Below, piece after piece: positions 14,682 through 29,993 of a stretch of 29,993 nt of DNA (the stretch's first letter is position 1; each line of letters starts with the position of its first letter). A program made the translations under genes and the position numbers. Origin of the DNA: a virus; IMG/VR virus record IMGVR_UViG_3300042691_036444, positions 1 to 29,993 of that record; one strand, 5' to 3'. The notes beneath the pieces are model-generated. The model saw only the letters and a list, made by a program, of their open reading frames with translations. It ran no database searches and was not told the DNA's origin.

Positions 14682-17600
14682 CCTTGTCCCCCCGGATCCG
14701 GTGCGCTGGACACTGGTGGCGCGCCCCTTCTCGACTGACCGGCAAGAAATGCTCACGCCCTGCGGGCTGACCCTTGCCCAAATGCTTGAGCTATCCGACC
14801 TACCGCAGCGCTACTGGCCATATATTCAGGTCTTCGTTGATGATGAGGAGGTGCCGCGCCAATGGTGGCGACAGGTGCGTCCAAAGCCAAAAGCCCGCCT
14901 GTTTGTGCGGGTGAATGCCATGGGCGGCGGCGGTGGGGGCAAGAACCCTCTCGCCATCATCGCCTCCATCGCCGTCATTGCCTTTGCTGCCTGGGCGGCC
15001 CCCATGCTAACCGCAGCGATCTTTGGCGTCGAGGCGGCCGCCGTCAGCGCCGCCGGTGTCTTCACTGCCATGGGCCTGACCAAGCTCGTGATTGCAGGCG
15101 CGATCACCATGATCGGTTCGTTGCTAGTCAATGCGATTGCACCAACCCCCAAACCTGTTGCAGACGCAGGTCTCACCAACCCCGCGTTTTCGATCACCGG
15201 CACGTCTAACCGCCTCAATCCCTATGGCGCCATTCCGCGTGTGCTCGGCCGCAGGCGTCTCTTCCCCGTCCTTGCCGCAAAACCCTATACGGAGACCGTG
15301 GGCAACGAGCGCTACATGCGACTGCTTCTGCTGGTCGGCTATGGCCCCCTCGATATCGATGATCTCAGAATTGGAGCGACCCCTATCAGCGCATTCGACG
15401 GTGCCGAGGTCGAGATCCGCGAGGGTTGGGCCAATGATCCCGCCATCACGCTCTATACGCAGCGGATCGAAGAAGACCCCCTCTCAATCTCGCTCACCGT
15501 GGCTGGGGGCTGGCGGACCATCACCTCGCGTCAAGGCGCACGAGAAATCAGCCTCGATATCTCCTTTGATCGGGGGCTTGCTTATTACAATGACCAAGGT
15601 GGGCGCTCGAACGCGACCGTTGTTTTCGAGGCGCAATACCGCAAGCTCGGCGCTGCAAATTGGGAAGCGATACCCTGGAAACCCGATGGCGACGCGGGGT
15701 TCGAGACGGCGGGCGTCATTACAATCACCGACCAATCCTCCTCGCCGGTACGACGGGGCGGTCGCTTCAGCACGCCAGAAGTCGGCCAATATGAAGTCAG
15801 GCTTCGTCGCACGTCTGCTGACGCCACAAGCCAGAGGCTGATCGACACCGCCACAGCCTCGGTGCTGCGCACCATCACCGATAATGCCCCTGTCACCATG
15901 CAGGGACTGTCGATGATCGCCCTGCGGCTCAAAGCCTACGAGCAGATCAATAACCAGTTGCAGCAAATCAGCTGTGTGGCGACGTCCTATCTGCAGGTTT
16001 GGAATGGAGCGGACTGGTCGTGGGAACTGAGCCGGAATCCCGCTTGGGCGTATTGCGATATTCTGCGCCGTCGCGGCGGGGCTGAGCTTATCCCGGATGG
16101 GCGGATTGATCTCAGCGCCATCAAGGAATGGGCGCAGGCCTGCGATAGCTTGGCTACTGATGGCTCAGCGCGCTGGGTCTTTGACGGCGTGATCGAAGGG
16201 GGATCGGTTGTCGACGCCCTGCGGGATATCTCGTCCCATGCGCGGGCGCGTTACGGCCTGCGGGACGGCAAACACTCAATCGTCCGGGACATTCCCCAGA
16301 GCGTCCCGGTCCTGCACATCACGCCGCGCAATTCCTACGGCTATTCCGGACGCAAACAATTCATCGACATGCCCCACGCCCTCAAGGTCCGATTCATCAA
16401 CCCGGACAAGGAATGGCAGGAGGACGAGCGGATCGTCTATGCAGATGGATATGGCGCTGAGAACGCCGAGCGCTTTGAAACCGTCGACATGATGGGCTGC
16501 ACCAGCCCAGAACAAGCATGGCGTGAGGGTCGCTATCACCTTGCCGTCGGCAAGCTCCGCCCAGAAACCCATGAGGTCTTTCAGGACGTCGAGGCGCTGC
16601 GGGCGACCGATGGCGACCTCGTCATGTTCGCACATGACGTCATTCTCGTGGGACTCGGCTGGGGCCGCATCAAGGCGCTGATCCTTGATGAGGGGATGGT
16701 GAGCGCCCTGCAGCTTGATGAGCCAGCCAATATGGCAGCAGGCAAAAGCTATGCGCTACGCATTCGCCGGGCCGATGGGTCAAGTCAGGTTCTGCCGCTC
16801 GTAACTTTGCAAGGTAATAACCACGCCGTCACTCTGGCGACAGCGCTTCCCCAGAGTCTTGCGCCTGAACCCGGCAATCTCTTCCAGTTCGGGGAATCTG
16901 GACGCGAAGCTGCGCCCATGCTGGTGAAGGGGATCGAGCCAGGCCCCAATCTCAGCGCCAAATTGATCCTGATCCCTGCCGCGCCCGCCGTGCATGATGC
17001 CGATAGTGGCCTCATCCCGGATTTCGACAGCTACATTACCCGTCCCGCGAAGATCGAATTGGCGCGGCCTCCTGCCCCGCATATCTGGTCGGTGGTGTCG
17101 GACGAGAGCGTTCTGGTGCGCGGCCCTGATGGTCGTTCAAGCCCGCGTATCCTTGTGCGCCTCTATCCCCCGGCATCAAGCGCCGTGAACCCGCCCGAGG
17201 GGATCGAAGTACGGCTTCGCCAAAGCGAAAGCGCTGGTCCCTGGTCAGCTATTCCCACACAGCCAGCTGATACTCTGATCGTCGGTGTGCAGCCCGTCGA
17301 GGACGGGGTCAGCTATGATTTGCGGCTGCGCTTTGTCAGCGCCTCCGGCATTGCCTCGGATTGGACCGAGGTGCTGGGCCACCGTGTAGTCGGGCGCACG
17401 ACCCCGCCCGGTGGCGTGACTGGCTTTGGCGCTGAACGCCGCGCTGATGGCGTGCAGCTGAACTGGGAGCCCGTCTCAGCCCTGGATCTCGTCGGCTACG
17501 AGATCCGCGAGGGTTCGGCTTGGGATGGCGGAAGCGTCGTTACGACCAGATACCGTGGCACCACACTCTTTGTGGCGCTCACCGACGCCAGCGAGCGCTT

Positions 17601-18777
17601 CTTCCATATCAAGGCGATCGATGAGGTCGGCCTCTTCAGTCAGAGCGCAGCTAGCGTATCAGCCGCCGTATCCGCGCCAACCGCCGTGACAGTCTTTGAC
17701 GTGATCCCGCAGGGCGATCATGTGCGGGCGTCATGGGAGCCGGTGGATGGAAGCGGCATTGAATATGAGCTTCGGGCAGGCCCGACGTGGGGCACGGGAC
17801 GGTTCGTTGGCCGCGCAGCTGGTAATAACCTTGTCGCGCTATGGCCCATTCGCGATGCCATCGACGAGACCTTCTGGATCAAATCGGTGTCATCAGCGGG
17901 CCTCTATAGCGACATGGCTGCGGTCTCAACCACCCGTCTTGCGCCCCTCACTGGCAGAAACGCTGTGCTTACAAGCGACCGGCAAGCCCTGAACTGGATG
18001 GGCGTCCAACAGGGAATGGAAGTCATTGGCGGTAATCTCCTCGCCTTGGCGCGCTCGAATGGCGCAAACCTGCCACGCGGGGAATATGTGTTCCCCGTTG
18101 ATCTCTCCCGCTCCTGGCGGGCGCGCAATTGGGTGGATGCGCGCATCGCAACGGCCCCTGCCAATGATCTGACCTGGGCTGACGCAACCTTCCGCTGGGA
18201 GGATAGCGAGGCTGCATCCGCCTGGTTGCCGCTGGGCGATGTTGATGGCGCGACACTGCGCAGCCAGATCTCGATTGAGGCTGCCATACCGAATGATCTC
18301 ATTGAGGGGTTCCGTCTGGCGGGCAATGTCACGGGCGTCAAAGGAATGGCGGCGAGCCAAGCACTCAACCTTGGCTATGCTCCCGCGCGCTTTGATCAAG
18401 GCGTACGTGTTGGCAACGGCACAAAGGCAAAGTGGCCGGTGAATATCCCATCGGAGTTCTCAAGCACTTTCGATGTTCGCCTTGATACTCTGCTCGACGA
18501 GCCCATCGTTTATCTGGCGCTGACTGGCGACAAGGGAGCCTTGCGTCTCATCTGGTCACCCGACATCGGCGCCTTTGCACTTGAAGACGATTACGGGCGG
18601 CGTGTGGTCACGCCTCTTGTCCGGCGCGCTGGTGACCTCATCACCTTTGGCATCTGCCAGACGCCAACCATGCGTCGTCTCTTCGCTGCATCAATCCAAA
18701 CCGGTGTTATCGCCTCGGGATCCGAGCCCTTCACACCGCTAGGCGCTTTTACCAGCGCACAGCTTCACCCCGCATAG
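14668..18777 (+). CDS. Tail tip attachment/host specificity protein, TipJ (gpJ-like)
   Basis: A 1369-residue central tail tip protein. Residues 1-80 form an N-terminal domain. A GGGGGG stretch (86-91) is followed by a long hydrophobic region (about 95-165), as in TipJ proteins that fuse a gpI-like part. The next section (GAIPRVLGRRRLFPVLAAKP) begins the conserved gpJ core, which runs to about 800. Two fibronectin type III-like modules follow at about 911-1000 and 1000-1092. A C-terminal, probably receptor-facing region (1092-1369) contains a W-rich motif (1166-1186) also found at the start of the fibre protein at 19283. It would bind the host receptor and organise the fibres encoded next. Translationally coupled to the peptidase gene. 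Confidence 0.92.
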   Translation: MPFDSLVPPDPVRWTLVARPFSTDRQEMLTPCGLTLAQMLELSDLPQRYWPYIQVFVDDEEVPRQWWRQVRPKPKARLFVRVNAMGGGGGGKNPLAIIASIAVIAFAAWAAPMLTAAIFGVEAAAVSAAGVFTAMGLTKLVIAGAITMIGSLLVNAIAPTPKPVADAGLTNPAFSITGTSNRLNPYGAIPRVLGRRRLFPVLAAKPYTETVGNERYMRLLLLVGYGPLDIDDLRIGATPISAFDGAEVEIREGWANDPAITLYTQRIEEDPLSISLTVAGGWRTITSRQGAREISLDISFDRGLAYYNDQGGRSNATVVFEAQYRKLGAANWEAIPWKPDGDAGFETAGVITITDQSSSPVRRGGRFSTPEVGQYEVRLRRTSADATSQRLIDTATASVLRTITDNAPVTMQGLSMIALRLKAYEQINNQLQQISCVATSYLQVWNGADWSWELSRNPAWAYCDILRRRGGAELIPDGRIDLSAIKEWAQACDSLATDGSARWVFDGVIEGGSVVDALRDISSHARARYGLRDGKHSIVRDIPQSVPVLHITPRNSYGYSGRKQFIDMPHALKVRFINPDKEWQEDERIVYADGYGAENAERFETVDMMGCTSPEQAWREGRYHLAVGKLRPETHEVFQDVEALRATDGDLVMFAHDVILVGLGWGRIKALILDEGMVSALQLDEPANMAAGKSYALRIRRADGSSQVLPLVTLQGNNHAVTLATALPQSLAPEPGNLFQFGESGREAAPMLVKGIEPGPNLSAKLILIPAAPAVHDADSGLIPDFDSYITRPAKIELARPPAPHIWSVVSDESVLVRGPDGRSSPRILVRLYPPASSAVNPPEGIEVRLRQSESAGPWSAIPTQPADTLIVGVQPVEDGVSYDLRLRFVSASGIASDWTEVLGHRVVGRTTPPGGVTGFGAERRADGVQLNWEPVSALDLVGYEIREGSAWDGGSVVTTRYRGTTLFVALTDASERFFHIKAIDEVGLFSQSAASVSAAVSAPTAVTVFDVIPQGDHVRASWEPVDGSGIEYELRAGPTWGTGRFVGRAAGNNLVALWPIRDAIDETFWIKSVSSAGLYSDMAAVSTTRLAPLTGRNAVLTSDRQALNWMGVQQGMEVIGGNLLALARSNGANLPRGEYVFPVDLSRSWRARNWVDARIATAPANDLTWADATFRWEDSEAASAWLPLGDVDGATLRSQISIEAAIPNDLIEGFRLAGNVTGVKGMAASQALNLGYAPARFDQGVRVGNGTKAKWPVNIPSEFSSTFDVRLDTLLDEPIVYLALTGDKGALRLIWSPDIGAFALEDDYGRRVVTPLVRRAGDLITFGICQTPTMRRLFAASIQTGVIASGSEPFTPLGAFTSAQLHPA

Positions 18778-18786
18778 GAGATCAAC

Positions 18787-19278
18787 ATGAAGATCAGCAT
18801 TGCCGACCTTCTGGCCCTGCTTGGCCGGAAGGCGGATGGAGACCGCTTTTGCCTGCATGGACGCCTCGAATCCCGGCTCGTCAGGCCTGATGGCACGACC
18901 ATCCTGCGCGTCAAAGACAACCTCATCGTAGATGCGGGCTTTAGCTTCGTCGCACAGTCTATTGGCGCATCGACGGGACGGCCCGGCGTGATGAGCCATA
19001 TCGCTGTTGGCACCGGCACTACGGCTGCGGCTACCGGCAACACGGCGCTTGTCACGGAAATAGCCCGAAAAGCTGCGACCTTCTCTCATACTGTAGGCAC
19101 CAAGGTCTTCCAGTTCGAAGCAACCTTCAATGCTGGCGAAGCGACGGGCGCAATCACAGAGGCTGGCGTGCTCAATGCCTCTTCCGCCGGAACCATGCTT
19201 GATCGTGTGGTCTTCGCGGTCATCAACAAAGGCGCGGATGACACGCTCACGCAGCGCTTTACCTTCACAATGAGCTGA
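18787..19278 (+). CDS. Small tail fibre-associated protein
   Basis: A 163-residue protein with AGGAG just before the ATG. The middle and end have the form seen in a common group of phage tail proteins: VKDNLIVDAGFSFVAQSIGA, MSHIAVGTGTTAAATGNTAL, FNAGEATGAITEAGVLN and DRVVFAVINKGADDTLTQRF. These proteins are strand-rich and sit between the tip protein and the fibres, perhaps forming a fibre base or adaptor. No enzymatic motif seen. Role inferred from position and pattern. Confidence 0.72.
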   Translation: MKISIADLLALLGRKADGDRFCLHGRLESRLVRPDGTTILRVKDNLIVDAGFSFVAQSIGASTGRPGVMSHIAVGTGTTAAATGNTALVTEIARKAATFSHTVGTKVFQFEATFNAGEATGAITEAGVLNASSAGTMLDRVVFAVINKGADDTLTQRFTFTMS

Positions 19279-19282
19279 TGCG

Positions 19283-20464
19283 ATGACCACTACGATCACT
19301 GCTACCTCGGGCGCTGATTACGTCTGGAGCAGCGCGTCGTTTACGTGGGATAGCGCGGAGAGTGGCAAGGGTTGGGCTGACGCCTCTGCAACAAGTTTTG
19401 TGGGCGTAGAAAACGCGATCCTTGCCTTCTCCGCTCTGGAGGCTCGCCAACCCCTTGCAGTTCGCAGTGAGGCAATCGCACTTGCCGATGCCCGCCAGCA
19501 ATCAGCCACCGGCGCTCGATCCGAGGCCCTGCGGATCGCGGAAACCTACATCGATCTCATCGCTTTTGTGCTGAAGGTCGTTGAATCCTTTGCGCTCTCT
19601 GAACTCTCTGGCAAGCAGCTCCTTCCAAAACCTGCTGCTGAAGCATTTACCTTGAGAGACGCAGGAACGCGCCAGGCATCGAAAGCAGTTCCTCAATTGC
19701 TTGGGATCACCGACGCGAGATCTGGCTTCGCACAGCGCCTATCTGCAGAAACGGTCTCGCTTACTGAGCGCAATATACGTCTCGGGCTCATTCCAAAATC
19801 AGAGACCCTCGGGCTTACTGAATCCAGACGTACATCTATGCAGCCAGATGCGCGTCAGTCTTTGACGCTATCTGAGACCTACACGGACATCATCGGCTTC
19901 ATCCTTCAGATCGCAGAAGCGTTCGCCGTTCTAGATCGAACGAGCCGCGCGCAAACCCATCTCTCCAAGGAGCAACTCGCCTTCCTTGATCGTCTCCTGC
20001 GCGCTAGCAACGCTGTGATTGCCGATCTTGCCTTTCGGACGACCCCGCTCGACGACGAAGGCTTTGCAACCCTGGTTGCACAAAGCAGGCCTCTTGGCTT
20101 CAGCGCTTTCCGAGATCTGACACCCGGTGATTACGAATATGCCAAGGCGCTCGTTCGCCTCATTCTGGAAGCGCCCATAACAACAGCCAACCGCGTTGCG
20201 CTGTCAGAGGCGCGTTTGAATATCGACGTGCCTGATGTGCGCGATCGAGGAACCGTCGCAGTCGCCGCTACCGGAACGGTCGTCGCCTTCAACCGCGTCT
20301 TCAATGCGCCTCCGGAAATCCAGGCGACATTCAAGAGCGGCACCATCCTGGCGATCCCCCAGATAGGGGCCATCACGACCACCGCCTTCGAAATCTCACT
20401 GATCACCCCAGATACACGAGCGCCAGTCGCGGGCAATGCGAGCTGGTCTGCCGAAGGCTATTAG
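19283..20464 (+). CDS. Repetitive tail fibre protein with internal duplication
   Basis: A 393-residue protein. The N-terminus has a W-rich motif (residues 11-31, VWSSASFTWDSAES) also seen in the C-terminal part of the TipJ protein. Residues 50-245 consist of loosely repeated units of the type E-x-hydrophobic-x-L-x-[DE]-x-R, within which a block of about 70 residues is duplicated (62-131 and 173-241). The last 70 residues (about 322-393: VAFNRVFNAPPEIQATF, AFEISLITPD, ASWSAEGY) look like a compact beta-rich fibre tip or carbohydrate-binding domain. The ATG is 4 bases after the previous stop. A host-recognition fibre is the best guess. Confidence 0.72.
   Translation: MTTTITATSGADYVWSSASFTWDSAESGKGWADASATSFVGVENAILAFSALEARQPLAVRSEAIALADARQQSATGARSEALRIAETYIDLIAFVLKVVESFALSELSGKQLLPKPAAEAFTLRDAGTRQASKAVPQLLGITDARSGFAQRLSAETVSLTERNIRLGLIPKSETLGLTESRRTSMQPDARQSLTLSETYTDIIGFILQIAEAFAVLDRTSRAQTHLSKEQLAFLDRLLRASNAVIADLAFRTTPLDDEGFATLVAQSRPLGFSAFRDLTPGDYEYAKALVRLILEAPITTANRVALSEARLNIDVPDVRDRGTVAVAATGTVVAFNRVFNAPPEIQATFKSGTILAIPQIGAITTTAFEISLITPDTRAPVAGNASWSAEGY
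19466..20005 (+). repeat. Internal duplication of about 111 codons in fibre gene
   Basis: Residues 62-131 (19466-19675) and 173-241 (19799-20005) align at an offset of 110-111 residues. The clearest pair is ETYIDLIAFVLKVVESFAL (87-105) and ETYTDIIGFILQIAEAFAV (198-216). The flanking SEAIALADAR/SETLGLTESR and the later D126/D236 segment follow at the same offset. The copies have diverged at the DNA level. Confidence 0.7.
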
Positions 20465-20478
20465 AGCGGGAGAATCCC

Positions 20479-21504
20479 ATGGCCCAAACCTACCCCGACA
20501 TTCCCTCAACCAAAGCCGTCAGGGACAGTCGTCAGGACATTCTCGACCGCGATGAGGCTGTCCGGTCAGCCTTTTCGGGAACGACCTATCCGAGCACAAA
20601 TCTCGTCATCGGCATGTTCTGCTTCCGCACTGACCTGGGGCAGCTTTTCGAATTGACCGCTACCTCCCCGGTGACGTGGACACGCCTTCCGTTGGGTGTT
20701 CCGGTGCCTCTCAATCAAGGCGGTACCAGCGCGACTGACGCAGCAACCGCACGCACCAATCTTGGCCTTGGCGCCCTAGCAGTCAAAAGCACCGTGGCGG
20801 CGGCGGATATTGATAACGCCGCGATCCAGACGGCAAAGCTACAGGACGCCTCTGTCACCACAGCCAAAGTCGTCGATGCCAATATTACAACGGCGAAGAT
20901 CGCTGATAGCGCCATTACAAGCGCCAAGATCGCCGACGGCACGATCACTACCGCTGATTTAGCGGCCCAGACCATCACAGACATTCGCGCAGGCGTTGAC
21001 GTCTCAAGCCGTGTTGCAAAGTCTGGAGATACGATGACCGGCACGCTGAGCGCGCCAAACCTCATTTCAACAGGAACGGTGCGATCTGGCGCAACCGGCG
21101 ATAACGCGAGATCAACGGGTTTCAAAATCGCTGATGGGTCAGATATCGGCGAACTCAACAGATCCAACCAGTATTACGACGACCGCATCAATAACTGCAC
21201 GGGATACCTTCCCAACGGCAATTGCCTAGCCAATGCGCAGTGGACGCCACCGAATGGCAACTGGTGGACCTGGGGTCTGGGCCTTGGCCCCGCCAATCCC
21301 AGTGGCTTCGATTTCGCCGGTGGCTCCAGTGTCGCTTATCAAGCTGTAACAGTTGGCCTCGTCTATACCGCCTATGCTTTGACTGCCGATGAAATCGGCG
21401 GTGGCGAATATCATCGCACCTTCAACAACTGCAATTGCGGCGGACTGAATTGCTACACCAATTGCAACTGCAATTGCGACTGTAATTGTAACTGCAATTG
21501 CTGA
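20479..21504 (+). CDS. Tail fibre protein with C-terminal Asn-Cys repeat tail
   Basis: A 341-residue fibre protein with GGGAGA before the ATG. Order of parts: an N-terminal attachment region (1-75); LNQGGTSATDAATARTNLGL (78-97), a motif common in phage tail fibres; five to six 10-residue repeats (111-170); SRVAKSGDTMTGTL (177-190), another classic fibre motif; a W-rich C-terminal domain with C240 and C249; and a final tail from residue 316 made almost only of Asn and Cys. The tail has ten cysteines at 318, 320, 325, 329, 331, 333, 335, 337, 339 and 341. Nothing in the standard fibre families I know explains this tail. The genes that follow encode two modifying enzymes, so I propose that the tail is their substrate. 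Fibre identity is well supported; modification is inference. Confidence 0.88.
   Translation: MAQTYPDIPSTKAVRDSRQDILDRDEAVRSAFSGTTYPSTNLVIGMFCFRTDLGQLFELTATSPVTWTRLPLGVPVPLNQGGTSATDAATARTNLGLGALAVKSTVAAADIDNAAIQTAKLQDASVTTAKVVDANITTAKIADSAITSAKIADGTITTADLAAQTITDIRAGVDVSSRVAKSGDTMTGTLSAPNLISTGTVRSGATGDNARSTGFKIADGSDIGELNRSNQYYDDRINNCTGYLPNGNCLANAQWTPPNGNWWTWGLGLGPANPSGFDFAGGSSVAYQAVTVGLVYTAYALTADEIGGGEYHRTFNNCNCGGLNCYTNCNCNCDCNCNCNC
20809..20988 (+). repeat. Ten-residue repeats in fibre shaft
   Basis: Residues 111-170 read as six consecutive decapeptides, of which five match well: IDNAAIQTAK, LQDASVTTAK, VVDANITTAK, IADSAITSAK and IADGTITTAD. The consensus is hydrophobic-x-D-x-x-[IV]-T-T-A-K. 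Such regular repeats suggest a trimeric beta-type shaft. Confidence 0.85.
21424..21501 (+). repeat. Asn-Cys codon repeat at the fibre C-terminus
   Basis: The last 26 codons consist of AAC/AAT and TGC/TGT alternation broken by GGCGGACTG, TACACC and one GAC. Both synonymous codons of Asn and of Cys are used, so the repeat is held at the protein level and is not just a recent DNA slippage product. The stop codon follows the last Cys directly. Confidence 0.9.
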
Positions 21505-21516
21505 TTGGAGCCGACA

Positions 21517-22329
21517 ATGCAAATCTATCAGATCAACCGAAAAATCATGCCGTTCAGTTCGGCCATACAAATTGAAAAGGATATCTTGAAGATCTCTGCG
21601 AGATGGAAGTCGCAAGATAAAAAGCCTATCTCTCAGTCATATAATCTAGCCGAAATAATCGGTCGATATTCTGAGGATCACGGCTGCATCGCGCTTTGCT
21701 ATACACCCAGATTCAAAGACGAGCTCGTGTGGCACGAAACAACACGGTTCACCTATGGTGAGCGGATTTCCTCCGATCGTTCTTATTCTTCGATGATGCA
21801 GGACGGCCTATCGATCAACGACACACCTCAAAAACGTGGCCGCCATAATGCCGCTTCGCCCGCAGCGATACTCAAACAACGATTGGATGCGACACCCGTC
21901 CTTTATCTTCTAACGCCTGCGCGAGGATGTTCCGTCAACAACTCAATCATCGTCTTTCACGGTGTGGATCCAGATCCAGGCATTCCGGAAGAATTCCGAA
22001 CAACTCACTCGTTGAGCGTGGATGGAAACATACAGGCTCCACCAATGATGCCCTCACTCAAGATGTTTCTGGAAAGCTGGCTTCCAATAGCCATTGGAGG
22101 ACCAGACTTAATTCCGGCCGATCAAACGGCGAAATACCTCCTCACCAATATGCAGGGTGGTGAAATATACCTTGAGGCCACTGGCGGGATCTTGAATCGG
22201 TCTCGCGCCAAAAACGGTCAACAAGTGCTCCTCGACACGCGTGGCTTGGAGACTGGCGAAGAGATCACGATCAAGGCCGGATACAAATTCTGGCCGGGGA
22301 TCTCTCAAAAAAAGATCGCAATCATATGA
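21517..22329 (+). CDS. Unknown protein in the fibre-modification cassette
   Basis: A 270-residue protein I do not recognise. GGAG (21507-21510) lies 6 bases before ATG 21517, so this start is preferred over a TTG at 21505 that abuts the fibre stop. The N-terminal part holds GCIALCYTPRFKDELVWHE; the middle has a low-complexity TPQKRGRHNAASP linker (about residues 100-112); the C-terminal third (YLLTNMQGGEIYLEATGG, then VLLDTRGLETGEEI) looks strand-rich. No signal peptide or membrane segment is seen. Base composition is visibly more AT-rich than in the neighbouring structural genes, which suggests separate acquisition. It is 12 bases from the fibre gene and overlaps the oxygenase gene (ATGA), so it is co-expressed with both. 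It could be a fibre chaperone, an accessory binding protein for the modifying enzymes, or another fibre part. Confidence 0.78.
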   Translation: MQIYQINRKIMPFSSAIQIEKDILKISARWKSQDKKPISQSYNLAEIIGRYSEDHGCIALCYTPRFKDELVWHETTRFTYGERISSDRSYSSMMQDGLSINDTPQKRGRHNAASPAAILKQRLDATPVLYLLTPARGCSVNNSIIVFHGVDPDPGIPEEFRTTHSLSVDGNIQAPPMMPSLKMFLESWLPIAIGGPDLIPADQTAKYLLTNMQGGEIYLEATGGILNRSRAKNGQQVLLDTRGLETGEEITIKAGYKFWPGISQKKIAII

Positions 22330-22958
22330 GCGTGATCAGTCTCTGGCCGACGAATATCTGGGCTGAAAATTTAACCGGCATATTGTCGTCGGAGGGATTT
22401 GCTAGGCTGATCGCAATCGGTGACGAATATGAGGCCGCACATCCTCGTGCCCATAAGCCAGCTGCAATGCGCGGGGGACCTGAGGTCAGCTATAATCTTT
22501 TGAAAGACAACCGACCCGAAGCCGTCACCTTCAAGGCGATACTCGCTGAGCGTATGCGGCGTCTTGCTAATGCTGAGGGTTTTGAGGCGGACACAGAATT
22601 TGAAGCGGTCTGCGCCCTTCGCCGCTTTGGGCCGGGAGAATATGCCAAGCCTCATAACCACAGAAGCGTGGATTACGTAGCCGTCCTTTGGCTGTGCCTG
22701 GAGCAAACTGACGATCGAGGCGACCGCCACCAACTGCCCGCCGGAAACCGCCTCCACTTGATTGATCCGATTGCAGCTCGCTCCCGCTTTCTCAATCACA
22801 CGATGCTGCATGCGATACGCCCCTTACCCGGGCTCCTCGTTATTCACCCGGCTCACATCTTCCATACCAGTGAAGTCAATTTGGGGCGTACGGACACTGT
22901 AGCTCTCGTGACCAACATTCGCGTCATCGATCCGGCGCGCCATTACATCCAACTCTAG
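22326..22958 (+). CDS. Predicted 2-oxoglutarate/Fe(II)-dependent oxygenase
   Basis: A 210-residue protein resembling the phage-associated 2OG-Fe(II) oxygenase family (TIGR02466-like). The N-terminal VISLWPTNIWAENL matches the family's start. H110 and H112 in KPHNHRSVDYVAVLWL, D147 in LIDP, and H177/H180 in HPAHIFHTSEV supply candidate iron ligands. R188 in LGRTDTVALVTNIRV fits the 2OG-binding position just before the last strand. Such enzymes typically hydroxylate amino acid side chains, including Asn and Asp, using O2. The start overlaps the previous stop (ATGA); the next gene begins 8 bases after the stop. Given its neighbours, I infer that it acts on the Asn-Cys tail of the fibre. The exact iron ligands are uncertain. 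Confidence 0.78.
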   Translation: MSVISLWPTNIWAENLTGILSSEGFARLIAIGDEYEAAHPRAHKPAAMRGGPEVSYNLLKDNRPEAVTFKAILAERMRRLANAEGFEADTEFEAVCALRRFGPGEYAKPHNHRSVDYVAVLWLCLEQTDDRGDRHQLPAGNRLHLIDPIAARSRFLNHTMLHAIRPLPGLLVIHPAHIFHTSEVNLGRTDTVALVTNIRVIDPARHYIQL

Positions 22959-22966
22959 AGAACCCA

Positions 22967-24340
22967 ATGACCGAAAATCTCGAATACCGGCTCGTGATGG
23001 CGGGCCGGAACGGCTATCTGCGCGAGCTTCTCTATCAGCCCCACGTATCATCGCTTATTTGGGCAGATACTGGTGAGCCCGTTGCCCTTTCGCCCGTCGG
23101 CACAAGCTACGATCATTCGGCACCTACTTGGACAACTGCCCACCCCGTCTCCCCCGACAATCCCGCAGTCAAGAGCCGGGATATCCGCACATTGAAGATC
23201 CAGATGGGGCTCAAGTGCAATTACGCCTGCTCCTACTGCAATCAGGCGTCCCAACCCCATGAAGTCCAGGGTGACATTGGCGATGTCCAAACCTTCCTGC
23301 GCAATCTCCCGCTGTGGTTCGATGGCGGAACTGATGGCGAAGGAAGCGGCGTTCGTATCGAATTTTGGGGCGGGGAACCCCTAGTCTACTGGAAAGTGTT
23401 TCGCGTGTTGGCAGGAGCCTTGCGCTCCGCTTATCCAAAAGCGCGCTTCAACATCATCACAAACGGTGCCTTGATCGACGACGACAAGATCGAGTTCCTA
23501 GACACTCTGGGCTTTAGCGTCGGCATCAGCCACGACGGCCCGGCCATGCGTTTCCGTGGTCCTGACCCCCTTGATGATCCGACCCAACGCTCCGCGATCC
23601 GCCGTCTTTACGATCGATTGCGCCCTTGGGGGCGAATTGGCTTCAATGCCGTGCTTCACAAGCACAACACCTCCCTTGCTCAGGTTCGAGCTCATATCGC
23701 CGAGCGTCTTGGTGTGCCCCAAGATGATCTCCAGCTTTCGACCGAAGAGATACTGCTGCCCTACGACGCAGGCGGTGTGGCGCTCTCCCCTACAACCGAT
23801 GACGAGCATCGCGACTATCGGGAGGCGATCTTCTGGGAACTGGTCAAGGGCCAAACGATGTCGGTCTCGACGATGCGCTCCAAGATCGACGAATTCTTCC
23901 GGTCGATTGCTCAACAGCGTCCCTCATCAACGCTCGGCCAAAAATGCGGCATGGATCGACCAAGCGATCTGGCCGTGGACCTCAAGGGCAATGTGCTGAC
24001 GTGCCAGAATACGAGCGCTTCCACCAAGCACCGGATTGGCGGCATTGAGGCCTTTGAAGACATCCGCCTGACTACAGCGCATCACTGGACCACACGGGCT
24101 GAGTGTTCGAAGTGTCCGGTCGTACAGCTGTGTCAGGGTGCCTGCATGTTCCTAGAGGACGATCTCTGGACCCAGGCTTGCGACAACAGCTTCACCCACA
24201 ACCTCGCGGTCATGGCGGCATCTCTCTACTGGCTGACACGCCTTGTACTCGTTGAGATCGAAGGCACCGTCATCCGACGAGATGGATTGCCAACACGGAT
24301 CCCGGTCATCAGGGCTCCAGCCGACACCGTCTCAGCCTAA
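22967..24340 (+). CDS. Radical SAM/SPASM protein, putative peptide maturase
   Basis: A 457-residue enzyme. The radical SAM motif CxxxCxxC is C84, C88 and C91 (GLKCNYACSYCNQ). The GGEP motif is at 135-138 (FWGGEP). The C-terminal SPASM motif is complete: C327, then G341 with C346 (GNVLTC), C380-x2-C383-x5-C389-x3-C393, and C405. This predicts one SAM-binding and two auxiliary iron-sulfur clusters. SPASM enzymes modify peptides and proteins: thioether crosslinks, other crosslinks, epimerisation, or formylglycine in anaerobic sulfatase maturases. The first 70 residues may recognise the substrate. It is the last gene before a strong terminator, so it belongs to the tail fibre unit. The likely substrate is the Cys-rich fibre tail (inference). 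Sulfatase maturation is unlikely because no sulfatase gene is nearby. Confidence 0.9.
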   Translation: MTENLEYRLVMAGRNGYLRELLYQPHVSSLIWADTGEPVALSPVGTSYDHSAPTWTTAHPVSPDNPAVKSRDIRTLKIQMGLKCNYACSYCNQASQPHEVQGDIGDVQTFLRNLPLWFDGGTDGEGSGVRIEFWGGEPLVYWKVFRVLAGALRSAYPKARFNIITNGALIDDDKIEFLDTLGFSVGISHDGPAMRFRGPDPLDDPTQRSAIRRLYDRLRPWGRIGFNAVLHKHNTSLAQVRAHIAERLGVPQDDLQLSTEEILLPYDAGGVALSPTTDDEHRDYREAIFWELVKGQTMSVSTMRSKIDEFFRSIAQQRPSSTLGQKCGMDRPSDLAVDLKGNVLTCQNTSASTKHRIGGIEAFEDIRLTTAHHWTTRAECSKCPVVQLCQGACMFLEDDLWTQACDNSFTHNLAVMAASLYWLTRLVLVEIEGTVIRRDGLPTRIPVIRAPADTVSA

Positions 24341-24344
24341 TCCG

Positions 24345-24368
24345 CCCGCCACCACGGCGGGTTTTTTT
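24345..24368 (+). terminator. Intrinsic terminator ending the tail/modification unit
   Basis: CCCGCC, loop ACCAC and GGCGGG form a perfect 6-base GC stem followed by seven T. It starts 4 bases after the radical SAM stop codon and separates the modification genes from the lysis cassette. Confidence 0.92.
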
Positions 24369-24387: not shown

Positions 24388-25053
24388 ATGACAGCAACAA
24401 ACAACCGGACCGGCACGCCCCCACGCGGAATTCGCAATCACAACCCCGGAAATCTCCGCCGTTCCTCCGATCCCTGGCAAGGTTTAGCGAAAGACCAGAC
24501 AGATCCCGAATTTTGTCAGTTTGCTGCGGCGAAGTGGGGGATCCGAGCTTTGGCGCGGACCCTCATTGCTTATCAGGACCGGTGGGGCCTCAAAAGCGTG
24601 AAGCGCATTATCTCCCGCTGGGCGCCGCCTAACGAGAATGACACGGGAGCCTACGTGAAAGCTGTGGCCGAAGCGGTTGGAGTCTCTCCTGACGAGCCCA
24701 TCGATACCCACGACTATAAAATATTGAAGCCACTTACGCTCGCAATTATCCGTCATGAGAATGGGCAGCAACCCTACACGGATAGCGAGCTTGATGCGGG
24801 ACTGGTCCTAGCAGGGGTCGAGCCGCCACAGAAGCCCCTTGCTCAAACCCGCACAGTGAAAGGTGGACAGGTTGCTGCCGGTGCAACGCTGCTCGGTCTT
24901 ACTGCGGAAGCAGTCAAAGACATTGAGCCCGCCGTTCCCCTGCTACAGACGGCTCTTCTGGCTGCACCATGGGTTGTTGGTATCACCGCGCTCCTTGGTA
25001 TCGGCTACATGATCTGGGCACGGATTGATGACCGTCGCCGGGGGCTGCGATGA
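24388..25053 (+). CDS. Lysozyme-like protein with C-terminal membrane segment (endolysin candidate)
   Basis: A 221-residue protein. The N-terminal RGIRNHNPGNLRRSSDPWQG (13-32), FAAAKWGIRALARTLIAYQD and a later YVKAVAEAVGV match the lysozyme-like virion/P5-type family that cleaves peptidoglycan. From about residue 155 a linker leads to hydrophobic stretches. The main one (187-211, TALLAAPWVVGITALLGIGYMIW) is a clear transmembrane segment followed by RIDDRRRGLR. There is no separate holin gene in the window, and the two spanin genes follow directly, so a lysis role is likely. The C-terminal segment could anchor the enzyme or help permeabilise the membrane. GGGAGAAAG precedes the ATG; the stop overlaps the next start (ATGA). 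Confidence 0.8.
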   Translation: MTATNNRTGTPPRGIRNHNPGNLRRSSDPWQGLAKDQTDPEFCQFAAAKWGIRALARTLIAYQDRWGLKSVKRIISRWAPPNENDTGAYVKAVAEAVGVSPDEPIDTHDYKILKPLTLAIIRHENGQQPYTDSELDAGLVLAGVEPPQKPLAQTRTVKGGQVAAGATLLGLTAEAVKDIEPAVPLLQTALLAAPWVVGITALLGIGYMIWARIDDRRRGLR

Positions 25054-25289
25054 TCACACTCATCGGACAAATCCTCGCTCCCTTTGCCCTTCGCTTGGCA
25101 GGCTTGGCCGCAGTCATCGGTGCGATCCTGGCAGTTTTGCTCGGTGCCCGGCAGGCTGGCCGCAATGCCGAGCGCGTCGCGCGCATGCGCAAAACACTGG
25201 AGATCCAACGTGAGCAATTGGAAGCAGCTGCTGCTCGTCCTCGTGATCGCGGCGAGCTTATTGAGCGGATGCGTGAGCGGAGGTTTTGA
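25050..25289 (+). CDS. Inner-membrane spanin (Rz-like)
   Basis: A 79-residue protein with an N-terminal transmembrane segment (LRLAGLAAVIGAILAVLLGA, about 14-33) and a charged, helical periplasmic part (RNAERVARMRKTLEIQREQL). This is the architecture of i-spanins, which join the outer-membrane partner to fuse both membranes at the end of lysis. It is shorter than lambda Rz. The start overlaps the endolysin stop (ATGA), and the o-spanin gene starts inside it in another frame. Confidence 0.82.
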   Translation: MITLIGQILAPFALRLAGLAAVIGAILAVLLGARQAGRNAERVARMRKTLEIQREQLEAAAARPRDRGELIERMRERRF

Positions 25290-25437
25290 CACCCAGGCAT
25301 GTATTCCGCTCGCAAAATATGACCAGCGTTTTTTGGATCGTGCTCAAAAAGAGATCAAACAGCTGCCGCAGGGGTCCGCGATCGAAGAAATGCTAAGCGA
25401 TTACGCCGTGTTACGTGCGCAGAACAACAGGTGCTGA
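25210..25437 (+). CDS. Outer-membrane spanin lipoprotein (Rz1-like), GTG start
   Basis: A 75-residue lipoprotein. From GTG 25210, MSNWKQLLLVLVIAASLLSG is a signal peptide ending in the lipobox LSGC, with the lipidated C21. GGAG (25199-25202) lies 7 bases upstream. The mature part is short and helical. The gene starts within the i-spanin gene in the +1 frame and ends 148 bases beyond it, a typical overlapped spanin pair. It would be the o-spanin partner in outer-membrane disruption. An ATG at 25084 in this frame gives no signal peptide at its start and is rejected. Confidence 0.86.
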   Translation: MSNWKQLLLVLVIAASLLSGCVSGGFDTQACIPLAKYDQRFLDRAQKEIKQLPQGSAIEEMLSDYAVLRAQNNRC

Positions 25438-25473: not shown

Positions 25474-26385
25474 TTAATTTAAGGGCCTCCGCTCGTCCTC
25501 AATCTCCGGATCAATAGTTTGGGCCGCCCTTAGTCGCCAGAATTCAGCTGCATCTAAATCTTGCGTTACCCCCTCGCCATGCTCATAAATGTGAGCAAGG
25601 CTTAACATGGAGTGCTTCAATCCGGCTTCAGCGCCTTTGTGAAACCAGTACGCCGCTTTTTCCAAATCGCGGTGTGTAGCATCGGGGTGAGCTAAACACG
25701 CACCAACGTTCTGCAATGCAGTTGGAATGCCACCATCCGCAGCAATCATATAAAATTCGATAGCCTTATCTATACTTTTCTCTACGCCTTTGCCGCGCTC
25801 GTACATTATGGCTAGGTTGTTAGCAGCGTACGCGTCGCCTTGCTCTGCTGAATCTTTGTAAAGATCGTGTGCCAAGTTGAGATCGCGTTCAACCTCAACT
25901 CCTTCCGAATAGTAGATTGCTAAACGACGTTGCGCGAGCGCTGAGCCGCCTTTTGCCGCTTGCCAATAAGCAGGGATCGCAAGATCGTGGCGACGTTCAC
26001 CAAGTGCGCCACCCGCAAACAGCTCTCCAAGCAGCGCAGAACACTGAACATCGCCAAGCTTGCTGCCTTCAAAAAAATATTCTGCTGCTTTTTGAGCCGA
26101 CTTCTCAACCCCCATACCATAGAGAAAAATCATACCCAATCCGTAGAAGGCGTCTGGAAATTCGCTTTCTGCAGCTTTCTCTAGCCAGAACTTAGACCGA
26201 CTAGGATCGGGTTCCGGGCAGAAGAGGAGCATATTGCCAAGCACCGATTGCACGAAGGAAATGCCTTCACCCGCAAGTTCTTCAAGTATCGCGAGAGCTT
26301 CATCGCGATGTCCAGCCTGGTACAGTTTCAGGGACTCTTGGTAGCGCGCTGCATTTCGTGAATCGATATCGTTGGACCCTGACAT
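25474..26385 (-). CDS. Sel1-repeat (TPR-like) protein
   Basis: A 303-residue protein built of Sel1-like repeats of about 36 residues: AFYGLGMIFLYGMGVEKSAQ, ALAQRRLAIYYSEGVEVERD, AYAANNLAIMYERGKGVEKS and SMLSLAHIYEHGEGVTQDLD are clear units. These alpha-helical solenoids bind proteins and often work as adaptors in signalling or with secreted proteases. No signal peptide is seen, so it is probably cytoplasmic. It lies 43 bases downstream of the HtrA-like protease gene on the same strand, so the two may form an operon. It runs convergently to the phage lysis genes and is more AT-rich by eye. Whether it belongs to the phage or the host chromosome is unclear. Confidence 0.9.
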   Translation of the reverse strand: MSGSNDIDSRNAARYQESLKLYQAGHRDEALAILEELAGEGISFVQSVLGNMLLFCPEPDPSRSKFWLEKAAESEFPDAFYGLGMIFLYGMGVEKSAQKAAEYFFEGSKLGDVQCSALLGELFAGGALGERRHDLAIPAYWQAAKGGSALAQRRLAIYYSEGVEVERDLNLAHDLYKDSAEQGDAYAANNLAIMYERGKGVEKSIDKAIEFYMIAADGGIPTALQNVGACLAHPDATHRDLEKAAYWFHKGAEAGLKHSMLSLAHIYEHGEGVTQDLDAAEFWRLRAAQTIDPEIEDERRPLN

Positions 26386-26428
26386 TTTTCGTCTCTCTGC
26401 CCGATGCCTGTACCCTCAATTTTCTGCC

Positions 26429-27706
26429 TTATCGTATCTTTCCATTCTCGTTAATGACAAAGACGTCACGCACTTCAAGTGTCCGAACGAAAAAATCATA
26501 GCGCCCACTGATCATTGTAAAACGCGGGTAGCGGACAATGACCTCGACATCACTCCCTTCGCGGTCTTTGAGCGCTGCAAGAATGTCTTCAGGGCTCTTC
26601 ACTGTAACGCCATCAATCGAGAGGACTTGATAGCCTTCACGAAACTGCGCCTGCTCTGCAACCGAGGCATCATCGAGAAACTGAATCCACATTACGGTAG
26701 GATCGTAGCCTGTGACCGTAGACCGGCCAATGACCATGCCCGACACATGAACACCCAACCGCTTCACCGGATCACGCCGCGTCAGCGCTGCGAGTTCTAC
26801 ACTTTTGGTTTCCTTGCCTCGACGGATCTGCACTTGAACGGGACCGCCGCCCCGGAAATAGCTAACGAAGCGAGTCGAGAAGCGTGCTGTTTCGTCACCA
26901 TTGACACCAAGGATGCGATCTCCCGGCTTCAGCATGTCGGCCCAATCGCCATCAGATTGCGCAACAACAAGTTCGCGTTCCTTCGAAGTCGTTGCGAACG
27001 TGACCGGAAGAACCGGCGGTGATGGATCTTTGCCTTGTTTGAGCAGGCTCAGGATGTTGCAGGCTTGCTTAGAGGGGACTGCGAAGTTCAAGCCCTCAGA
27101 CACAGATTTGCTAAATCCTGACGCGTTCACGCCAACGACGATCCCAGATTGCGCATCAATGAGAGCGCCACCTGAATTGCCTGGGTTAAGTGCAGCATCT
27201 GTCTGAAGGCTTTCTTCTCCCTCAAGAGACTTTGTGCCGCTGATAATCCCTCGGGTCGCTGTGTAGTCCAATCCCCAGGGGTGCCCAAAGGCGATGACTG
27301 GCAAGCCCGCTGCGGGCTCACCCACACACTTCATTTCGGCGACAAGCGCCTCAGCGGGGATGTTTGCGGGGTCTACTCGCAGAACAGCCAAATCCAGATG
27401 GTTGTCGACGTAGATTTTCTCTACCTTTGAATAGGGACGGTCCTTGAAGCTCACCCGGACAGTGGATGGTGACTTCCCGGCTACGTGTGCATTCGTGAGG
27501 ATCCAGCCACGCTCGCGGTCCACCAAAAAGCCGGAGCCCCGCCAAGTCCCCTTCTTTTCGTTACCAAATGAGTAATCTACCGCCGTGGTAATTTTGACGG
27601 TGTACCGACCAGCCGCCTCGATCACGTCGTTAGCCAGCGCGGGCTGAATTGCTTGTGTAGCAATAAGCGTTGCGAAAATTGAACCTATGCCAAAAGACCG
27701 AATCAT
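26429..27706 (-). CDS. Secreted HtrA/DegP-like serine protease with two PDZ-like domains
   Basis: A 425-residue protein with an N-terminal signal peptide (about 1-25, FATLIATQAIQPALA). The trypsin-like domain carries the triad H74 (LTNAHVAG), D105 (HLDLAVLRV) and S178 (NPGNSGGAL). Two PDZ-like modules follow (about 235-312 and 318-405: WADMLKPGDRILGVNGDE, EGYQVLSIDGVTVKSPEDIL). It would work in the periplasm on misfolded or specific proteins. The start is supported by a G-rich site (complement of 27714-27718) 7 bases upstream of the ATG. It is shorter than housekeeping DegP (about 470-500 residues) and may have a specialised role, perhaps with the Sel1 protein. No phage link is visible. Confidence 0.92.
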   Translation of the reverse strand: MIRSFGIGSIFATLIATQAIQPALANDVIEAAGRYTVKITTAVDYSFGNEKKGTWRGSGFLVDRERGWILTNAHVAGKSPSTVRVSFKDRPYSKVEKIYVDNHLDLAVLRVDPANIPAEALVAEMKCVGEPAAGLPVIAFGHPWGLDYTATRGIISGTKSLEGEESLQTDAALNPGNSGGALIDAQSGIVVGVNASGFSKSVSEGLNFAVPSKQACNILSLLKQGKDPSPPVLPVTFATTSKERELVVAQSDGDWADMLKPGDRILGVNGDETARFSTRFVSYFRGGGPVQVQIRRGKETKSVELAALTRRDPVKRLGVHVSGMVIGRSTVTGYDPTVMWIQFLDDASVAEQAQFREGYQVLSIDGVTVKSPEDILAALKDREGSDVEVIVRYPRFTMISGRYDFFVRTLEVRDVFVINENGKIR

Positions 27707-27929
27707 CTACATGCCCCCGTTTTCCAGATCATTGGGGGACGTAGACTTTGCCGCAAGACACCTGTGCCCATCACCCCGCTGTTAGCGATTCAATACCTTA
27801 CGGGGATGACAAATTTTGACACGCCTCCCGCTGAGAATATGGCCGAGCCATTACAATATAAGTTTCGTCTGCATGACATTTCAGACTGTAAGCGCGGTCG
27901 AGATTACGGGCGTCTGATTTATCCGTTGG
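27707..27929. other. Intergenic region upstream of the protease gene
   Basis: These 223 bases hold no credible gene. The - strand promoter for the protease should lie here. A weak candidate is TTGCGG, 17 bases, AATGAT, just upstream of the start. A short separated dyad (CCCCG/CGGGG around 27775-27815) is also visible. Nothing decisive. Confidence 0.3.
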
Positions 27930-28871
27930 TCAGCTTGCAGTTTGCTGAGGTCCCTCTTGCCCCGCCTCCCATTCCGCATAGGTGTTGCCATCCGGCAATT
28001 TCCATAAGGTGCGCCCATTCGCGCTCGCACCAATGACTGCTGCTGCGGCGGCCGAGGGTGAAGAAAAATTGTAGCTACTGGTGAATACCAGAAAATCAAT
28101 ATCGCGCCGGAGCACGCCCTTTTCGAGTAGTGTTTCCCGAATGGCTGCCGTCGCCTTTGGTACAGTTGGTGTTGCACGGGCCCGGGCCTTTGATCCCTCA
28201 GCCACGACGAACTCTCCGGACGAGCCAACCACCATTTTAGCAGCGTATCCTTCTCCTATGAAAGAGAATACCACTGAACCGCAACTGGCTGGTTGAGTGA
28301 CGTTGGGGCCAAGGTCAAACGAATCCTGTGCGCGTCCTTTCATCTCGCGGAACAGATCCCATCCGAGCGCTCCGACCAAAGTCTTTGTCTGATCGACGAA
28401 CTCGTCCATGTCGACGCGATCCTGAAGTGGCAGCTTACCTGCATCATTAGAGGGTCTTTTGCTATTTGGAATGGACCACCGAACACTGCTACCTATGTTG
28501 CGGATAAGCGACGACTCTACATATCGAGCATGACTTTTCGTAAGGTTCTCATCCTTGCTGATCAGTACAACCGTATCTGTCCAGAAGCCTTTGGCGTCTC
28601 GGCCAGACTCATTCGAATTATGGTAAGAGAGCCGTGCGCCAACGCCCTCCGACTCGCCAATATAAGCAAGTTGCCTGTCCTGATGATTTTCATCTGCCCC
28701 GATTAGAATATAGACACCAGGCCGCTCGATTTCTGGAAACGTCTCACGCACACGCCGCAACTGATTGCGACGAAAGGCAATAGCCTGGATCGTAGACATA
28801 GAAATCTGGGCAACACGTATCCCGCTTGGATCTCCATCGAGAAGGAAAATGTTGATCGAGCGGGGCTTCAT
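27930..28871 (-). CDS. GIY-YIG nuclease-like protein with C-terminal DUF4357
   Basis: A 313-residue protein. The N-terminal SINIFLLDGDPSGIRVAQI is typical of this family. The GIY-YIG domain follows: GVY at 52-54, YIG at 70-72 (AYIGESEGVGARL), R80 and the metal-binding E119 (YVESSL), all expected catalytic positions. The C-terminal SAAAAAVIGASANGRTLWKL (about 273-292) marks a DUF4357 domain. Proteins of this type often occur in restriction and defence loci. The start overlaps the stop of the type III restriction gene by 4 bases (ATGA), so they are co-transcribed, and it may be a nuclease partner of that system. Confidence 0.88.
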   Translation of the reverse strand: MKPRSINIFLLDGDPSGIRVAQISMSTIQAIAFRRNQLRRVRETFPEIERPGVYILIGADENHQDRQLAYIGESEGVGARLSYHNSNESGRDAKGFWTDTVVLISKDENLTKSHARYVESSLIRNIGSSVRWSIPNSKRPSNDAGKLPLQDRVDMDEFVDQTKTLVGALGWDLFREMKGRAQDSFDLGPNVTQPASCGSVVFSFIGEGYAAKMVVGSSGEFVVAEGSKARARATPTVPKATAAIRETLLEKGVLRRDIDFLVFTSSYNFSSPSAAAAAVIGASANGRTLWKLPDGNTYAEWEAGQEGPQQTAS

Positions 28872-29993
28872 TTTGCAGCACCAATAGACGAAGATCGGCT
28901 GAGGCCGACGACCGCCATGAGCTTCCCGTAATCCGTGACAACATCATACCGCACCGCGTCACCGGACACGCGCCGTCCTATTTCATCGAAAAACTTCCGT
29001 GCGCAGGCGATCTTGGTGGACTCAATCTCGCGTAGCTTGAGCGAGGACATTGTCCCCTTAGTCTCGGCAACGAAGTAGATGTGCTTGACAGTGCCGACCT
29101 TGAACGAGATTGCCCAGTCCGGGTTGTAATCGCCGACAGGTGTCGGAATCAGGAACCCGCGGGGGAGCTTCGCGTAGACGACGACCTCGTCGCTCGTATC
29201 AAGCTCCTCCACGAACCGCCGTTCGATGTCCGAGTCCGTGACAACGTAATCATAGACATGGTTTTTCAGTTTTGAGCCAACCTTGGAGAAGTCCTGACCT
29301 GACTGGCTGGCCGTGAATATGTCGACGTCGTATCGGTCCTCGACACCGTCATAGGCCAGGCACTCAACGACCATTGTCGCCTTCTGCTCGGAGATGATCC
29401 TGGACGTCTCGGCAATGAAGTGTTCGGGGTTCTGGCGGAACTGAGCAAAGATGCTTGGCGCCATCCCGGTGAGGATTTCCGCAACGGTCCGGCGGGTTAA
29501 ATGGGCGTTTTCGGCGATCTTGCCCAGCAGGTCATACTTCACCTGCGAATAGACGGACCCGCCGCTCTCGGTGGTTGTATTGGTCACCTTGAACCCGTCG
29601 CCTGCCTTGAGCTGATCGTCCGTTATGTCATCGCTCTGAATGCCTGTTTGGACCGTGTACTGCAGCGGCGTGACACGGAGCTGGCTATCGAGCGCGCCGA
29701 CGCACTTGCGAACGAGCTCGTCGGAATCAAACTCCACCCGATAGACGGCCTTGCGGTTGATCCGGCCCCAGAGCTCCTGAAATTCCTTCTTGTCAAAGTT
29801 AGCGTTCAGAGGATTGGTCTTCGGCTTCCGGCCGTCTTCAACCTTGGGCAATTGGGCGTCGCTGAAAACGCTGTCGATCAGCTGGAAGACCTGATCGGCA
29901 TAGGGCTTCAGATCTTCCGGAAGCGCCGCCAGCGTGCCTGCGGTTTTGGCCTCGTGGTAGCCGGCCGCAATCTGGTCAGTGTCATCGGTGTAG
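28868..29993 (-). CDS. Type III restriction enzyme Res subunit, C-terminal part (runs off the window)
   Basis: An open frame of 375 codons ends at 28868 and continues beyond the right edge. An internal TTG at 29851 is not the real start, because the frame stays open upstream to the edge. The C-terminal domain has a PD-(D/E)xK nuclease signature: YNPDWAISF, then FVAETKG about 16 residues later, as in type III Res endonuclease domains. The preceding region (NFDKKEFQELWGRINRKAVY) also matches Res proteins. Res cuts DNA after ATP-dependent motion, with a Mod methyltransferase usually encoded upstream; neither the helicase part nor Mod is visible here. It overlaps the GIY-YIG gene, forming a defence operon. 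Confidence 0.88.
   Translation of the reverse strand, partial: YTDDTDQIAAGYHEAKTAGTLAALPEDLKPYADQVFQLIDSVFSDAQLPKVEDGRKPKTNPLNANFDKKEFQELWGRINRKAVYRVEFDSDELVRKCVGALDSQLRVTPLQYTVQTGIQSDDITDDQLKAGDGFKVTNTTTESGGSVYSQVKYDLLGKIAENAHLTRRTVAEILTGMAPSIFAQFRQNPEHFIAETSRIISEQKATMVVECLAYDGVEDRYDVDIFTASQSGQDFSKVGSKLKNHVYDYVVTDSDIERRFVEELDTSDEVVVYAKLPRGFLIPTPVGDYNPDWAISFKVGTVKHIYFVAETKGTMSSLKLREIESTKIACARKFFDEIGRRVSGDAVRYDVVTDYGKLMAVVGLSRSSSIGAAK

Follow-up and report, generated by a model that had tools for sequence, protein, structure and literature searches.

The chemistry of SPASM radical SAM enzymes cannot be predicted from their fold or from sequence similarity (PMC6231123). The published SPASM motif is a seven-cysteine pattern, CX9-15GX4C-gap-CX2CX5CX3C-gap-C (PMC6231123), and the described enzymes differ in how the auxiliary iron-sulphur cluster AuxI is held. 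AuxI is fully ligated in anSME (by C255, C261, C276 and C330), SuiB and PqqE, CteB has an open AuxI site that is bound by a substrate cysteine, and for AlbA and RumMC2 only seven cysteines or three AuxI ligands have been counted (PMC6231123, PMC8172795). PeaB/QhpD is a SPASM enzyme that forms thioethers in a full protein rather than in a peptide (PMC8172795). Small peptides and a few enzymes are the known substrates of radical SAM maturation; we found no paper that describes it for virus particles. In pelagimyophages, radical SAM cassettes have been described within a host-recognition cluster near the tail fibres (PMC7029224).

The locus described here lies in a 29,993-base IMG/VR record, the whole of which was analysed and is referred to below as the window; its open reading frames were called by a simple rule. 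The late region is lambda-like, with a terminase gpA, a lambda portal and a capsid protein recognised by Pfam, and a tape measure protein and J recognised by PHROG. Downstream of J, two genes (18787-19278 and 19283-20464) are followed by a tail fibre, a helper, an oxygenase-like gene and a radical SAM gene, all arranged head to tail and either overlapping or a short gap apart; the radical SAM gene closes the run that starts with the fibre. The features needed here are these:

14668 to 18777, + strand: central tail fibre J or baseplate hub (phrog_31, 3.6e-129)
18787 to 20464, + strand: the two genes between J and the fibre, given as context (phrog_5417 for 18787-19278; homologues in relatives)
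20479 to 21504, + strand: tail fibre or adhesin of 341 aa, the proposed substrate (PHROG tail-fibre matches; syntenic with relatives)
21424 to 21501, + strand: C-terminal alternating-Cys tail of the fibre, NNCNCGGLNCYTNCNCNCDCNCNCNC, the proposed modification site (sequence; recurrence in relatives)
21505 to 22329, + strand: conserved helper, 274 aa from a TTG start (ATG at 21517), with an Ig-like C-terminal domain and an N-terminal part without a PDB match (helper cluster in relatives' loci; fold searches)
22326 to 22958, + strand: 2OG-Fe(II) oxygenase-like protein of 210 aa (phrog_81, 4e-9; PF13759, 0.0027, below cut-off; relatives)
22967 to 24340, + strand: SPASM radical SAM enzyme of 457 aa, phrog_1802 (profile, fold and conservation evidence)
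23216 to 23239, + strand: CX3CX2C motif (C84, C88, C91), ligands of the SAM-binding [4Fe-4S] cluster (sequence motif, conservation)
23945 to 24181, + strand: SPASM seven-cysteine region, C327 to C405 (TIGR04085, motif spacing, conservation)
24344 to 24362, + strand: terminator-like hairpin followed by a T-run, the end of the cassette (sequence)

The hairpin is GC-rich and stands directly 3' of the radical SAM stop codon, and lysis genes begin at 24388. The reading frames at 25050-25437 overlap, contain a lipobox-like LLSGC and look like nested Rz/Rz1 spanin genes. Beyond them, on the minus strand, 25474-29992 has a lower GC content and encodes a Sel1-repeat protein, an HtrA-like protease, a GIY-YIG/DUF4357 protein and the terminal part of a type III restriction endonuclease; this segment resembles host chromosome, so what the record holds may possibly be a prophage's right end. 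Among relatives in bacterial genomes the closest (L200), with 91% identity and the same fibre tail, comes from a Beijerinckiaceae MAG, from which the host is likely to be an alphaproteobacterium of that kind.

The radical SAM frame is bounded exactly by 22967 and 24340 and opens with ATG. Its product contains ten cysteines in all (C84, C88, C91, C327, C346, C380, C383, C389, C393 and C405), arranged as CNYACSYC and then C-x13-G-x4-C ... C-x2-C-x5-C-x3-C ... C, and the spacing of the last seven is an exact fit to the published SPASM motif (PMC6231123). All ten are invariant across 189 distinct relatives (the last positions are gapped in one or two members), and an eleventh conserved cysteine, sought in the same alignment, was not found; a pattern kept to this degree is not a product of chance. 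The CX3CX2C motif, a Pfam PF04055 score of 34.4 bits against a gathering score of 29.5, and a matching fold, the last resting on a confident AlphaFold2 prediction (pLDDT 89.5, pTM 0.89), place the protein in the radical SAM superfamily. The exact cysteine spacing, the NCBIfam SPASM model TIGR04085 (35.5 bits, cut-off 27) and conservation across the 189 members place it in the SPASM subfamily, and the phrog_1802 profile (187.8 bits, E 7.8e-55) places it in that family. No PqqD/RRE Pfam match was found in the enzyme, and residues 1-65 form mainly three strands in the model, in which a canonical RRE is not evident. A sequence-only reading had claimed a complete seven-cysteine SPASM gene at this site, and that claim held. 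It had also claimed that nothing nearby resembles a sulfatase, a quinohemoprotein or a classical RiPP precursor other than the fibre, and this held as well: the searched ORFs of the window include no sulfatase or quinohemoprotein genes.

By its own terms, that same reading would be refuted if the enzyme fell clearly within a family whose substrate is known and unrelated, and no such placement was seen by HMM cut-offs or by phylogeny. No NCBIfam equivalog cut-off was approached by the phage family, the best score being 71 bits against 519. In the tree, the family, together with the second enzymes described below and divergent phage forms, is split by a 98/97 branch from all references, which comprised PqqE, anSME, PeaB, HxsB, a nif11 maturase and other SPASM proteins; several of these are long branches, and the relations among the references are unsure. 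Identity with PqqE is rejected on this branch. For the other described enzymes the scores are far short: 48.1 bits against 349.45 for anSME (TIGR03942), 66.8 against 453 for PeaB/QhpD (TIGR03906), 67.8 against 340 for the ranthipeptide maturase PapB (NF047865), 45.6 against 425 for the SCIFF maturase CteB (TIGR03974) and 40.5 against 370 for HxsB (TIGR03978); the nif11 maturase was rejected on HMM cut-offs, the tree or both. Further points count against individual candidates. The alignment and the 189-member conservation show seven SPASM cysteines, not the eight of anSME, with no equivalent of C261; no quinohemoprotein genes (peaA, qhpC or peaD) were found in the window; and the tail carries X-C repeats, not the CX3D of the PapB substrate. 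CteB is rejected even though it is the best match to the enzyme model (Z 21.9 over 346 residues, rmsd 4.2, model residues 2-425). ChlB (19.1), TigE (18.7), anSME (18.6), EpeE (14.1) and PqqE (11.8) follow with lower Z scores. The thioether maturases PapB, PeaB and SCIFF are among the best-scoring NCBIfam models, all below cut-off. Two plasmid SPASM radical SAM genes, from Bradyrhizobium and Mycetohabitans (L288, L289), are directly followed by a tryptophan 7-halogenase and group with PeaB in the tree.

The fibre encoded three genes upstream ends in an alternating Asn-Cys repeat, the longer stretch reading ...EYHRTFNNCNCGGLNCYTNCNCNCDCNCNCNC before the stop codon, and the linkage of such tails to the enzyme is shown in both directions. 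In the forward direction, viral contigs were queried with the enzyme, giving 442 relatives, from which only the 80 best were carried forward, and loci with at least 4.5 kb of upstream sequence were scored for a motif of (X-C)3 or longer. The motif was found upstream on the same strand in 56/58 viral loci and on the opposite strand in 0/58; among forward loci in bacterial genomes it was found upstream on the same strand in 51 of 65, and on the opposite strand in none. The reverse scan used the DNA pattern (AAYTGY)4 alone, which favours Asn-rich tails, and returned at least 120 stretches. The count was made on the 72 proteins with a C-terminal NCNCNCNC for which either the enzyme was found or 5 kb of downstream sequence was available: a same-strand enzyme lay no more than 7 kb downstream in 71, and in the remaining one (L089) it lay at 7.04 kb. 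It is likely that hundreds of other phages keep the enzyme and a Cys-tailed protein together. The late structural unit, which the sequence-only reading had called an unusual place for such an enzyme, is the rule for this family and not an oddity, so that remark was only half right; its view of the fibre as the sole plausible substrate is supported, and strengthened by the two-way association. That said, the tail is absent from the 4.5 kb window in two viral loci (L029 and L068) and in 14 of the 65 bacterial-genome loci, the latter mostly divergent members, and no explanation was found. One of these bacterial loci, from a Bacteriovoracaceae genome (L228, 6287-12911), encodes, besides its family member, another radical SAM enzyme and a glycosyltransferase, and shows a weak match to PqqD; with this gene content, the wider enzyme family may possibly include non-phage peptide systems. 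No description of the enzyme-tail pair was found in the open-access PMC literature searched, which did not include bioRxiv or subscription papers, so a prior description is not excluded; the nearest reports were those on radical SAM genes of Campylobacter phages (PMC2853527) and of pelagimyophages (PMC7029224).

The proteins that carry the tail fall into 12 groups without detectable similarity outside it, ranging from proteins of 67 aa to fibres of more than 700 aa, which leaves the tail and the enzyme as the common factors. In the forward sets, the X residue is Asn in about 67% of cases, Ala in 20% and Asp in 10%. The codons vary synonymously (AAC/AAT, TGC/TGT) and the Asn and Cys residues are retained, which indicates that selection acts on the protein; on this ground a microsatellite origin for the repeat is rejected. 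The presence of a Cys-rich candidate precursor beside the enzyme, recurrent in the loci, is a RiPP-like trait. Several carriers stand out for other reasons. The window fibre and those of L042, L061 and L212 share a pre-tail domain with a recurring NC...NGNC...PNGNWWTWG and extra cysteines, perhaps a common tip domain. In Bradyrhizobium hipponense (L271, 5342-5806), a tandem pair of proteins, one of 77 aa with the ending NCACDCNCACGK and one of 72 aa with the ending ACACDCNCNCGK, lies near a family member, and in five loci (L123, L138, L145, L177 and L193) two or three small X-Cys-tailed proteins stand in tandem before the helper, oxygenase and radical SAM genes. Two further phages (L128, 1517-6597, and L089, 3051-11662, both on the minus strand) encode a protein of 67-79 aa ending ...HTHIF[YF]DDYSTACNCNCNCNC. 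In L128 it is followed by several radical SAM proteins, two of them strong phrog_1802 matches and one a divergent family member, in a multi-enzyme cassette that also encodes a phrog_36229 protein.

No function for proteolytic release of a small product was found in the window; some relatives have Hint domains after the repeat. In the Achromobacter phage JWF fibre (L002, 4727-6178), an internal X-Cys repeat leads directly into CFPAGT, with which a Hint domain opens (PF05203, 3e-12), and the same layout is seen in L042, L061, L212, L217-L219, L223 and L250, the Hint-like domain starting with C[FV]PAGT or VPEGT. In L061 and L250 the Hint profiles fall short of cut-off, and L042 has no Pfam match, so those three calls rest on the sequence motif. 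Hint domains are known to cleave themselves, and self-cleavage in these loci would turn the X-Cys repeat into a free C-terminus. A repeat that runs straight into a Hint domain would then be independent support for a free, processed tail as the functional product, an inference in which cleavage is assumed from knowledge of the family.

The other genes of the run also recur. Neighbour clustering placed the helper cluster in 98 loci; scored across 121 loci, the helper was present in 86 and absent from the searched 3.5 kb in 35. Its residues 193-274 form an Ig-like domain (Z up to 9.8), PDB fold searches with its N-terminal part gave no match, and its close viral relatives are uncharacterised. Oxygenase-like proteins are found in 61/121 loci; several of their clusters have PF13759 or PF13640 matches, most of which fall slightly short of cut-off, and one was assigned solely on an HxD...H...R-like motif. 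In 19/121 loci there is a second, shorter SPASM-like enzyme, and 41/121 have neither it nor the oxygenase. This second enzyme, of about 335 aa, is encoded immediately upstream of the main one and forms its own clade (L004 6977-7999, L109 7139-8137, L049 3818-4825 and others).

Four of the seven SPASM cysteines are assigned to AuxII and three to AuxI, an inference from sequence alone. When the phage enzyme is aligned with anSME, its C327 is paired with C255 and it has no counterpart of C261, which gives it a thioether-type AuxI pattern, though a non-Cys fourth ligand such as the invariant D330 is not excluded. This pattern, taken with a cysteine at every second residue of the tail, makes Cys-to-carbon thioether cross-linking the most likely chemistry. 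The best fold match, to CteB, is in line with this, but CteB, ChlB, TigE and anSME all share the fold of the phage enzyme, which weakens it as evidence of chemistry. That the enzyme acts on the Cys tail of the fibre is very likely, an inference from genomic linkage. We lean toward a thioether as the product, an inference of its own, as no product has been observed.

The explanation that we modestly favour overall, its chemistry again inferred, is that the enzyme is a thioether maturase dedicated to the (X-Cys)n tail in which the phage's adhesin ends. A tail cysteine would probably bind the open site of the AuxI cluster, the 5'-deoxyadenosyl radical would generate a carbon radical on a neighbouring Asn, Ala or Asp, and Cys-to-carbon thioether bridges would then be closed along the tail, producing a compact, reduction-proof tail-fibre tip. 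The adjacent 2OG-Fe(II) oxygenase, or the second SPASM enzyme in other phages, may introduce further modifications, and the helper may assist folding or delivery. A role in host adsorption or tip stability, inferred from position only, could as easily prove wrong as right.

The alternative that survives best, though clearly less likely, keeps the tail as substrate and changes the chemistry; Asn epimerisation as in polytheonamide, conversion of Cys to formylglycine as by anSME, or another cross-link all remain possible. The fold of the enzyme is common to anSME and EpeE, and the combination of alternating Asn, a radical SAM enzyme and an Fe(II)/2OG oxygenase is reminiscent of the poy cluster. 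EpeE and PoyD use a cysteine as hydrogen-atom donor. With no conserved extra cysteine to donate a hydrogen atom, epimerisation becomes less likely, and formylglycine formation is less likely because AuxI lacks the fourth cysteine of anSME and TIGR03942 is far below cut-off. More generally, a cysteine at every second residue points to cysteine chemistry.

A second alternative, very unlikely, is that the tail is a metal- or Fe-S-binding tip of a trimeric fibre, the enzyme having only an indirect effect or modifying a different virion protein, for instance the helper. Within a trimer, the cysteines of an alternating XC strand could face inward, T4 gp37 with its His/iron needle offers a parallel for a metal tip, and the helper does co-occur with the enzyme in most loci. 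Metal binding, however, needs no dedicated SPASM enzyme, and in 35/121 loci the helper is missing from the searched 3.5 kb whereas tail and enzyme are almost inseparable. The weakest alternative, an auxiliary metabolic or host-takeover gene that lies near the fibre by chance or through lysogenic conversion, draws on the many radical SAM genes of Campylobacter phages, which were read as metabolic (PMC2853527). It is all but excluded, and a host metabolic gene in particular is rejected, because tail and enzyme are associated both ways on the same strand, within a compact run of genes, across many contigs, several phage types and several host groups.

A bolder version of the maturase reading can be put forward, for and against which the case seems evenly balanced. 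Tailed phages may own a general, modular system for the covalent tailoring of virion adhesin tips, in which a transferable (X-Cys)n tag on unrelated adhesins would be served by a dedicated SPASM enzyme and a helper, together with either 2OG oxygenases or second SPASM enzymes, with Hint self-cleavage in some cases, giving a cross-linked tip for adsorption or envelope penetration. If the maturase reading is true, many phages make their receptor-binding tip by radical and oxygenase chemistry, unexplained 'auxiliary' radical SAM and 2OG oxygenase genes of phages would be accounted for, the X-Cys repeat would serve as a sequence tag for locating substrates, and there would be a new route to cross-linked protein tips.

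Among known systems, CteB, the SCIFF or thermocellin maturase of the ranthipeptide class, resembles the phage enzyme in its fold, in having, by sequence, three Cys ligands on AuxI and in a Cys-rich substrate encoded nearby; it differs in that the phage candidate substrate is the end of a 341-aa virion fibre and not a small peptide, and in that the phage enzyme has no clear RRE. The model of PapB, the freyrasin maturase and another ranthipeptide enzyme, matches 27/27 scanned family members, and repeated substrate cysteines with acidic or amide partners are common to both systems, but the phage repeats are X-C where PapA has CX3D, and the candidate substrate is again an adhesin. The HMM of PeaB/QhpD, the quinohemoprotein amine dehydrogenase maturase, matches the phage enzyme over its full length. 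With anSME the phage enzyme shares the SPASM fold, and differs in lacking a fourth AuxI cysteine and in having no sulfatase here; in GenBank the homologue from Achromobacter phage JWF is labelled anaerobic sulfatase maturase, which is likely to be wrong. The Achromobacter phage 2-1 record cites phrog_1802 with the JWF protein as its match, and the phrog_1802 entry itself, 'radical SAM domain-containing protein', supplies a name only, with no substrate and no mention of the Cys tail to which the family is linked here.
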